DNA of 51,363 nucleotides, taken from positions 1 to 51,363 of the forward strand of contig WHTT01000046.1 of NCBI GenBank assembly GCA_009377605.1, written 5' to 3'. The notes beneath the pieces were generated by a model. That model did not search any database, was not told where the DNA came from, and saw only the letters and a list, made by a program, of their open reading frames with translations. Below, piece after piece: positions 1,267-7,801 of the stretch. The position numbers and the translations under genes were made by a program. The DNA comes from Luteitalea sp. GTDB lineage: Bacteria > Acidobacteriota > Vicinamibacteria > Vicinamibacterales > Vicinamibacteraceae. Positions within the stretch are counted from its first letter, which is position 1; each line of letters starts with the position of its first letter.

Positions 1267-1683
1267 ATGATGAAACCACTACGCGTCTACGCTTTGGCGG
1301 CGACAGTAGGCAGCTTCTGTGTTCTTTTCCTTATGCTCGGTGGTCGCTACGCGGGCATCGTGCCTGAATGGGCCGGACAGCTGGCGTGGTTGGTGCTCGT
1401 CCTGTCTGGCTCTGGTCTCTGCGGCTATCTGCACCCTCACAACGCCTGGCGCTGGGGCGCTGTAGTTATAGGCGTTCAGCCGTTGGTAGTTGTTGCTGTG
1501 TCGTACGTTGTCGGCGAGTTGGAGCATCCATCGAGCTCGATGGGTGGCATGGTTGCCGTCGCCATCTTTTCGACACTGGCGCTCCTCATAAGCCCTCTGC
1601 CCATATTAGCCAGCTCTCTCGGTGGAGCTGTTCGCAAGAGACTTTGCGCCAAGTGCAGTTGGACATCGAGCTCAGCGCAATGA
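1267..1683 (+). CDS. Small membrane protein, four predicted TM helices
   Basis: No family is recognised. The 138-aa product is mostly hydrophobic, with four likely membrane helices at about residues 8-27, 37-54, 62-80 and 91-112, and a short basic, Cys-containing C-terminal tail. It is the first gene of a tight operon: its TGA (1681-1683) overlaps the ATG of the gp19-like gene (1680-1682) in an ATGA arrangement, so translation of the two is probably coupled. The TACGTA inverted repeat lies about 105 bp upstream. A role in anchoring or helping export the next product is possible but is only inference from the coupling. Confidence 0.65.
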   Translation: MMKPLRVYALAATVGSFCVLFLMLGGRYAGIVPEWAGQLAWLVLVLSGSGLCGYLHPHNAWRWGAVVIGVQPLVVVAVSYVVGELEHPSSSMGGMVAVAIFSTLALLISPLPILASSLGGAVRKRLCAKCSWTSSSAQ

Positions 1684-2249
1684 CACCACCCGCGCAACGA
1701 AAGGACCTCGTTGTGGCTTCTCCCCTGATGTCTATCGGCACACCGCAGCTTGCACGTCGGTTGGCACGGATCTCGCGCGCCGCGTTGTGGATGCTCGTGG
1801 CCGCTGCCATGGTGCTCCTCACCGTCCCGCACGTCCGCGCGCAGGCGCCGACGGCCGCTCGGGTTTCCCTCGTGATTGACGAGGTCGAGATCGCGTCCTT
1901 TTCTGAGCTTGCCGAGATCTCGTCGACTACGCAGCATGTGAACCCCTTAACCGGGCTCCGGCTCGTGCAGCCTAACGTCTTTAGCAACATCGTTCTGCGA
2001 CGAGGCCTGACAAGCGATACCGAGTTGTGGGACTGGTATGAAAGCGGCACAGATCGCATCGGCGTGCCTCGAGGCAAGAATGGAGCGGTTGTCCTCCACG
2101 ACCGTGCAGGGACACCGATTCTGCGGTTCCACTTCGAGAACGCTTGGCCCTCGAAGATCGAAGTTGGCGAGCTCCAAGCGGGGCCCTCCGTCGCCTTGAT
2201 CGAGACCGTGACCTTGACATGCGAGAGCATCAGGCGGGTGGCACCGTAG
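1680..2249 (+). CDS. T4 gp19-like phage tail-tube domain protein with signal peptide
   Basis: The C-terminal 125 residues match the phage tail-tube protein family (T4 gp19-like, the inner tube of contractile injection systems). The family pattern is visible: a substrate strand VSLVIDEVEIASFSELAEIS, then PNVFSNIVLRRGLTSDTELW, a short turn, HDRAGTPILRFHFENAWPSK, and a closing VALIETVTLTCE. The family is normally 140-170 aa and cytoplasmic. Here it is preceded by a basic segment and a hydrophobic stretch ending in VRAQA (about residues 30-57), which reads as a Sec signal peptide. If translation starts at the internal ATG (1728) the signal peptide is of ordinary length. The gene overlaps the upstream membrane gene by four bases and is followed 17 bp later by a collagen-like secreted protein. 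No sheath, baseplate or AAA ATPase gene is in the window. Export of a tube-like subunit is unusual. Confidence 0.75.
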   Translation: MTPPAQRKDLVVASPLMSIGTPQLARRLARISRAALWMLVAAAMVLLTVPHVRAQAPTAARVSLVIDEVEIASFSELAEISSTTQHVNPLTGLRLVQPNVFSNIVLRRGLTSDTELWDWYESGTDRIGVPRGKNGAVVLHDRAGTPILRFHFENAWPSKIEVGELQAGPSVALIETVTLTCESIRRVAP

Positions 2250-2266
2250 GAGGTGAGGGAACGACG

Positions 2267-2953
2267 ATGAGAAGACTTCGCGGAATAAGCCGGGTCGCTG
2301 TTGTAGGGACGGCGGCAGTCGCGTGTGTCTGTGGGTATGCCCGCACGGTTGCTGCGCAGAGTGACGAGATCCACGCATGCGCCTCCACGCTGGCCATGCG
2401 AATCGTCGACGCCACAGAGGCCTGCCGGCCGTGGGAGACCCGCTATGTCTGGAACCAGGAGGGCCAGCCAGGTCCCGCCGGTCCACCTGGTCCTCCGGGA
2501 GGGTTCACGGGGCCGATTGAATCGCGCACGACCGAATCGGGAGCCTCCGTCCTCTGCCCTAGCGGGGGAGAGTGCGTTCCCATCTCTCTGTCGGCCACCG
2601 GCGAGATGCTGACTGTCGCTGACGGCACCCAGATCGTGGCCACGGCGACCGTCGTAGCGCGGGCCGATGCGCCATCCTCCGAGGCCACATCGGTGAGCCT
2701 CACCTGCATACTCGAGCACCGACGGGTCGACTCGCCTGTCTGGGGAGTGTTGACACCGGCGTCGCACGCAGTGTTCACGGGTCTCAATGATTCACGCCTG
2801 TGGGACGCCGGCCTGAGGTTCACGCTTCCCCTGCAAGGTGCGCGTGTCGTACCGAGCGGCATCTGGGACCTCGAAGTAAGGTGCGGAACCCTGAACCATG
2901 AGGTCGTCATCACGGCCGCCAGCCTCCAGGTTTCGGTTCTCCCAGCGCCGTGA
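2267..2953 (+). CDS. Secreted protein with short collagen-like segment
   Basis: The 228-aa product starts at ATG 2267, chosen because a strong ribosome site (AGGAGGTGAG, 2248-2257) lies ten bases upstream. Residues 1-27 form a signal peptide ending near VAAQ. A cysteine-containing module follows, then a short Gly-X-Y run, GQPGPAGPPGPPGG, and a C-terminal region of about 150 residues rich in beta-type sequence with several cysteines. The layout of an acidic Cys module followed by GxPGPxGPPGP is common in secreted bacterial proteins of unknown role. It is the third gene of the operon with the gp19-like protein, so it may be a surface or extracellular partner of it. No enzymatic motif is seen. 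Confidence 0.65.
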   Translation: MRRLRGISRVAVVGTAAVACVCGYARTVAAQSDEIHACASTLAMRIVDATEACRPWETRYVWNQEGQPGPAGPPGPPGGFTGPIESRTTESGASVLCPSGGECVPISLSATGEMLTVADGTQIVATATVVARADAPSSEATSVSLTCILEHRRVDSPVWGVLTPASHAVFTGLNDSRLWDAGLRFTLPLQGARVVPSGIWDLEVRCGTLNHEVVITAASLQVSVLPAP

Positions 2954-6767: not shown

Positions 6768-7801
6768 CTACGGCTCGCAATTCTGCGGAACGGGGTCGTT
6801 ACCTGTGCCCGGGTCACAGGTGTCGTTGCCGTCGCCGCCATCGAGCGTGTCGTCGCCGTCGCCGCCGTCGAGCGCGTCGTCGCCGCCCAAGCCCCACAGC
6901 ACGTTGTCGAACGCGTCGCCAATGAGCGTGTCGTCGAACTGCGAGCCCTGGACGTTCTCGAAGTCGACCACGATGTCGTTGCCGGCAGCTCCGCCTGTGG
7001 CCTCGAGGGCGAGGTTGACTTCGACGCCAGCGCCGATGTCCGCGTACGTCAGGAGGTCAACCTCGCTTCCACCGTAGGCGATGTCATCGCCCGCGCCGGG
7101 CCAGATTTTGTCGTCGTCGGGCCCTCCGCTGATGGCATCGTTGCCCTCCCAACCGCTGAGGCTGTCGTCGCCGCCCAGGCCGATAAGGATGTCGTCCCCG
7201 CCCAAGCCTCCGAGCGAGTTGGGGCCGTCGTCGCCGATGAGGGTGTCGTCGGCATGGGAGCCTATGACGCCTTCGATGTTGGTGAATGCTTCGGGATGAT
7301 CGCAGTCGTAGTCGGGCGTGATGGCGCTCTGGAAGCGCAGGTCAACCTCCACGCCTAGGGGGCCGGGCATTTGGTTGTAGGAAACGCGATCGGCGGTGCC
7401 GTCGCCGCCGTCGATGCTGTCACAGCCGCCGAGTCCCTCGAAGGTGTTGTTGCCTTCGTCGCCGATGAAGGTGTCGTTGAACGCCGAGCCTATGGCGTAC
7501 TCGATGTTTTCCAAGGTATCGTTGCCGTCGCCGCCGCGGTGGCGGTGCCCGCGACAAGATCGACGATCACCCCTGTCACCCCGTCTGGTTCCGGGTCCGC
7601 ATTGTCGTATCGCGCCGTGTCAACACCGTCGCAGCCGTTGAGCGTGTCATTCCCCAGGCCGCCATACAAGGTGTCCGTAGCCAGGCCGCCGATGAGCGTG
7701 TCGTCGCCGGGGCCGCCAGCGATGTACATCCGCCGTTGGGTGGCTCCGCTGGTGTCGGCGCTGCACTCGTCTGTCGCGACGCCGAAACCCTGACCTGTCA
7801 C
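6768..7801 (-). pseudogene. RTX-type calcium-binding repeat protein, frameshifted
   Basis: Two frames on the minus strand together encode a hemolysin-type calcium-binding repeat protein. The N-terminal frame (7801-7490) contains AGGPGDDTLIGGLATDTLYG and runs to VDLVAGTATAAATATIPW. The correct continuation, GGDGNDTLENIEYAIGS, is found in the next frame, which carries about ten further GGxGxDxL/I repeats down to 6768. A one-base shift lies in a GC-rich run near 7535-7550. RTX nonapeptides fold into a beta roll that binds calcium after type I secretion. The start is unsure: GTG 7801 is possible, and the frame is open about 120 bp further upstream. The ending PQNCEP lacks an obvious type I secretion signal. 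If the shift is a sequencing error, the gene is one 345-aa protein. Confidence 0.75.

Follow-up and report, generated by a model that had tools for sequence, protein, structure and literature searches.

A solitary eCIS Cis1-type tail-tube protein carrying a putative Sec signal peptide in a Luteitalea genome

Results

Three closely spaced genes at the start of the contig

The DNA analyzed here, which we call the window, is 51,363 nucleotides long and makes up the entire contig C46 of a draft Luteitalea genome (G000; 6.8 Mb, completeness 97.5%). Three open reading frames on the plus strand, at 1267-1683, 1680-2249, and 2267-2953, lie close to its beginning. The first encodes a small membrane protein of 138 residues with three or four hydrophobic segments. 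The second, the tube-like gene with which this work is concerned, starts inside the stop codon of the first through the overlap ATGA and encodes 189 residues when read from there; later in-frame starts are possible at 1728 and 1791. The original prediction held that this gene is translationally coupled to a gene for a four-TM protein. The frames do overlap by ATGA, and the TM count may be three as well as four. The third frame opens with an ATG at 2267, 17 bases past the stop of the tube-like gene, and has its own Shine-Dalgarno sequence, GGAGG. Its product is a predicted secreted protein of 228 residues having an IHAC...W module and a few Gly-X-Y triplets.

A scan for promoters and terminators between 600 and 3300 of the window gave nothing better than shuffled sequence. 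The contig starts within an IS4-type transposase gene, of which the C-terminal part is present at 4-660 on the plus strand, 600 bases upstream of the operon; the assembly is therefore broken at a mobile element, and we regard this gene as context outside the system. Farther along, at 6768-7801, lies a gene for an RTX-like repeat protein with GGDGDDTLDGG motifs, which occupies two overlapping frames and is possibly frameshifted.

Family and predicted fold of the tube-like protein

The tube-like protein was compared with protein family profiles and scored 66.9 bits against PF06841 (cut-off 28.2) and 69.9 bits against TIGR02241, above the curated cut-off of 62.4, with residues 59-186 aligned in both cases. 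PF06841 was its only Pfam match, and the Hcp family PF05638 was not matched. By these profile scores, the product of 1680-2249 is a genuine member of the gp19/TIGR02241 family of tube subunits, as had been proposed from family motifs. The AlphaFold2 model (pLDDT 74.9, from an alignment of 8 sequences) likewise has a gp19/Hcp-like fold. Foldseek matched it to 9gts with an E value of 6.5e-7, and VIA-align gave a Z score of about 10.8 to the tubes of PVC, AFP, and Hcp. The window model and the model of a genuine tube relative, L070, both matched the tube fold of PVC, AFP, the Streptomyces coelicolor CIS, and Hcp, so the structure prediction upheld the fold expected by the original prediction, at the level of the monomer.

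A predicted export signal shared by four proteins

Known tail-tube proteins are cytoplasmic parts of phages, eCIS, and T6SS. Typical TIGR02241/PF06841 members are encoded beside sheath genes, whereas the window protein is encoded alone and has the features of an exported protein. Residues 1-55 are arranged like a Sec signal peptide, RLARISR-AALWMLVAAAMVLLTV-PHVRA/QAP, encoded at 1680-1841 on the plus strand. The n-region is RRLARISR, the h-region is AALWMLVAAAMVLLTV, and a V-x-A site precedes the sequence QAPTAARVSL, with the likely cut at VRA/QAP. The mature tube-fold domain would then be encoded at 1842-2249 on the same strand.

Three further proteins share this arrangement. One is a second copy in the window genome, on contig C15, which is 60% identical to the window protein over its full length and also has a signal peptide. 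The others are single solitary homologues in G210 and G277, genomes from other families of the same phylum. We refer to these four as the exported proteins, the signal peptide having been called for each from composition and conservation. The hydrophobic stretch of the window protein reaches 2.54 on the Kyte-Doolittle scale (14 residues), and values before the domain range from 2.14 to 2.54 in the four exported proteins versus at most 1.28 in all other homologues examined. In all four the signal peptide sits directly before the natural Cis1 N-terminus (TAARFSI...). We conclude that the tube-like protein is probably exported through Sec, and the signal peptide that had been noticed in the window protein alone thus recurs at other loci.

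The window and C15 copies differ with a dN/dS of about 0.31 and their frames are open throughout, indicative of purifying selection on both. Duplication of the whole region was considered and rejected, as the two loci share no more than the tube-like gene, the collagen-like module, and regulator and beta-lactamase-like families that are common. Among 193 genomes of the class and 396 drawn from the phylum, the exported form was seen in no further genome; a genome of the same genus lacks the gene, and order-level searches around G210 and G277 (12 genomes) added no members. The exported form is thus rare among the genomes searched in the phylum of the window genome, to which these counts apply.

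Secreted repeat proteins abound in the C15 region around the second copy. A near-identical pair of secreted proteins (GQGID.PNAKEVQAVSQIEPGSPAAVGLPVTVTNAPAEPVPVNG) is encoded at L053 13272-13910 and G000:C15:39247-39894, in the region where the second exported copy lies along with two collagen-like genes; one of the pair was compared with Pfam and had no match.

Sheath and other machinery

Gene calling in the window yielded no further tail gene, consistent with the earlier claim that the rest of a tail is missing, and this extends to the sheath at the genome level. A search for the sheath family PF04984 found none in the whole of G000, nor in G210 or G277, and the same search was positive in G002 and G423. 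The same combination, a signal peptide and no sheath match, is therefore present in G210 and G277. No other eCIS relics were seen among the called genes in the neighborhoods of the four exported copies.

The window genome does have a T6SS-like cluster on contig C36 with two Hcp genes (PF05638), separate from the tube-like gene; the other genes of this cluster were recognized by sequence and order and not by family search. Within the cluster (L076 1241-19916), a peptidoglycan-binding-like gene lies between the two Hcp genes, which are divergent. No Hcp gene (PF05638) was found in G210 or G277. Hcp, a tube protein released when the T6SS fires, lacks a signal peptide. The window protein has the same fold as Hcp by Foldseek and VIA-align but differs in its Sec-type signal and its eCIS lineage, described below.

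Placement in the eCIS Cis1 lineage

A scan of species genomes with the two G000 paralogues as query found nothing. With an alignment of the four exported sequences, a scan of 84,980 species genomes recovered seven loci, none of them exported. All seven are first tube genes of eCIS-type clusters from Acidimicrobiaceae, Ilumatobacteraceae, Pseudonocardiaceae, and Chloroflexi. In at least four of them (L069, L070, L071, and L075), the gene called immediately upstream is sheath-like; in the other three the frames called there were poor. The window protein is 31-41% identical to these nearest tube relatives, and among solved structures its closest relative by sequence is 8bl4, an S. coelicolor CIS entry.

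A maximum-likelihood tree was built from 77 family members. In it, the exported proteins grouped with the seven tube loci and a Streptomyces tube whose gene adjoins an annotated sheath gene (support of 100/99 for the 12-row clade and 99/95 for the 10-row clade), separate from the tube proteins native to their phylum. As to whether they fall inside or beside the Cis1 group, holding the machine proteins together gave an AU p value of 0.139; holding the exported proteins together as one clade, as for a single origin, gave 0.41. Judged from this tree, the exported proteins belong to the actinobacterial/Chloroflexota eCIS Cis1 tube lineage, either nested within it or as its sister. Two other sources were rejected. 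The canonical tube genes native to the same family or class, with copies in G002, G003, G005, and others, lie elsewhere in the tree, and for a phage source, the window protein had no match in 50,697 phage records and none in IMG/VR.

The S. coelicolor CIS (PDB 8bl4/9gts) is reportedly a contractile injection system, described in a published study. The Cis1 protein of this and other actinobacterial eCIS shares the domain, the tree lineage, and the core motifs with the window protein. In contrast, the window protein has a signal peptide, its gene is solitary in a genome with no sheath match, and its beta2-beta3 segment is roughly 7-12 residues shorter.

A shortened beta2-beta3 loop

The segment between the end of strand 2 and strand 3 measures 31, 31, 31, and 26 residues in the four exported proteins versus 34-40 in 69 of the 70 others. 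The sole non-exported homologue with a short segment (27 residues) is encoded at L024 1423-1860 in G110 and sits on a very long branch. The segment forms a hairpin, E36-43/E46-53, in the AlphaFold2 model of L070. In the window model there is no hairpin, and residues 32-46 are disordered with pLDDT under 50, which could be due in part to an alignment of only 8 sequences. The loop also has fewer charged residues in the two G000 copies. The core strands and the ENAWPSK motif are conserved and common to the exported proteins and genuine tubes.

In most systems, the beta2-beta3 loop is the largest inter-ring contact of tail tubes (PMC8718954). Its deletion abolishes tubes in T5 and leaves mostly hexameric rings in YSD1 (PMC8718954), and changes to the extended loop of Burkholderia Hcp1 leave hexamers unable to stack (PMC4650826). 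Given the shortened loop and these known deletions, the exported proteins would be expected as rings or monomers and not as tubes. The shortened hairpin leaves room for another stacking mode.

Neighboring genes

The small membrane protein has no relative in the 193 genomes of the class and no Pfam, NCBIfam, or PHROG match, and it is therefore classed as an orphan. The third gene had been described as encoding a collagen-like secreted protein. Its signal peptide and secreted character stand, and like bacterial secreted collagen-like proteins it has Gly-X-Y triplets after the signal peptide and IHAC...W module. There are only about four of them, however, a far shorter collagen stretch than in those proteins and too few for the Pfam collagen model, and the protein had no Pfam match; collagen-like is thus a generous label.

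A search of the whole genome with this protein returned one other match, at C15:27987-28205. The second exported copy is 4.3 kb away from this match, and a further collagen-like gene on C15 starts 1.4 kb beyond the match. A 1.2-Mb sample of at least 41 other contigs of the genome contained no IHAC...W module. The chance of a single match falling within 4.5 kb of the second copy is about 0.0013, as a post hoc estimate. Relatives of the module occur in 15 of the 193 genomes of the class, including genomes without exported tube-like genes, and at the G210 and G277 loci neither the TM nor the collagen-like neighbor is present. The suggested collagen-like partner accordingly gains from its recurrence near the second copy and loses from its absence in G210 and G277, so that the link would be local at most. 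The trio proposed as an operon does not hold as a unit, since by these comparisons the three-gene arrangement is not conserved.

Discussion

A functional eCIS or phage inner tube comes with a sheath, lacks a signal peptide, and has a long beta2-beta3 loop, and the window protein departs from this on all three counts. With its export signal, partly missing stacking loop, and no sheath gene, a tube part here seems to have been put to a different use beyond the cytoplasm. Our preferred reading, to which we assign a probability of roughly 0.6, is that a Cis1 inner-tube subunit left its machine and took on a new role as an exported protein of the envelope or the extracellular space, present as rings or monomers. 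An eCIS Cis1-type subunit would have become separated from its contractile machine and gained a Sec signal peptide, which would let its folded domain act in the periplasm, on the surface of the cell, or beyond it. The beta2-beta3 hairpin, the lock between hexamer rings, would have been largely lost, making a soluble monomer or single hexameric rings the most likely states. The protein might then be a module with a binding or structural role, in the envelope or in the secreted fraction, and would not form a conduit tube. The secreted collagen-like protein would be its most plausible partner in the window genome.

The main competing explanation is a secreted tube, pore, or fiber, as the original prediction had raised, in which the exported subunit polymerizes beyond the cytoplasm and the collagen-like protein may take part. 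The complete tube fold of the model, the core strands and ENAWPSK motif retained as in genuine tubes, and collagen-like neighbors at both G000 loci would all fit such a polymer. We nonetheless disfavor it as unlikely, because the inter-ring loop is short in all four exported proteins, with fewer charged residues in two of them, and deletions of the same loop in phage tubes stop tube formation or give mostly single rings (PMC8718954). No conservation of the partner was found outside the window genome.

The exported subunits might instead interfere with contractile machines, whereby periplasmic or released protein binds the injection tip or tube of an attacker, or the cell's own T6SS, and blocks it. 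A Cis1 domain that keeps its ring-forming strands yet would not stack is what might be expected of a natural dominant-negative, and the host has a T6SS-like cluster with two Hcp genes. G210 and G277, however, have neither T6SS Hcp nor PF04984 sheath, so self-regulation would not be general, and we judge interference of either kind improbable. A decoy against contractile weapons may still be the most striking reading left. More broadly, and only tentatively, a tube subunit exported by Sec as free rings, acting either as such a decoy or together with a collagen-like protein as a scaffold of the envelope, could represent a new functional class of proteins with the tail-tube fold, one that belongs to no contractile machine.

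The gene could also be a decaying remnant of a lost eCIS, the upstream sequence resembling a signal peptide by chance. Such decay would account for the shortened loop, the sparse distribution, and the nearby IS4-type transposase fragment, but signal peptides occupy the same position at all four loci, which come from three genomes, the two G000 copies have a dN/dS of about 0.31 with open frames, and no other eCIS relics accompany any of the four, which makes decay quite improbable. That the protein serves a functioning eCIS or T6SS whose genes lie elsewhere in the genome, for example as a tube-tip or terminator variant, might be suggested by the cluster on C36 but is very improbable, given that the genome has no PF04984 sheath, that T6SS tubes are made of Hcp and assembled in the cytoplasm whereas the window protein has a signal peptide and an eCIS lineage, and that some genomes with a homologue lack both Hcp and sheath.

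We found no precedent for an exported or solitary tail-tube protein in the literature searched. The recruited Cis1 subunit that we favor would be a case of the tail-tube fold escaping its machine, in a small set of exported, solitary, loop-shortened proteins from several families of one phylum, and it raises the testable question of what a tube subunit is able to do once it is outside and non-stacking. It also bears on annotation, in that the label "phage tail protein" need not imply a tail. Solitary tube-family genes of another sort are found at L052 8241-8675 in G532 and L055 9551-10120 in G003, genomes with no PF04984 sheath match. They are without signal peptide and have unrelated neighbors, and they constitute a second kind of orphan tube gene, one whose product is cytoplasmic.
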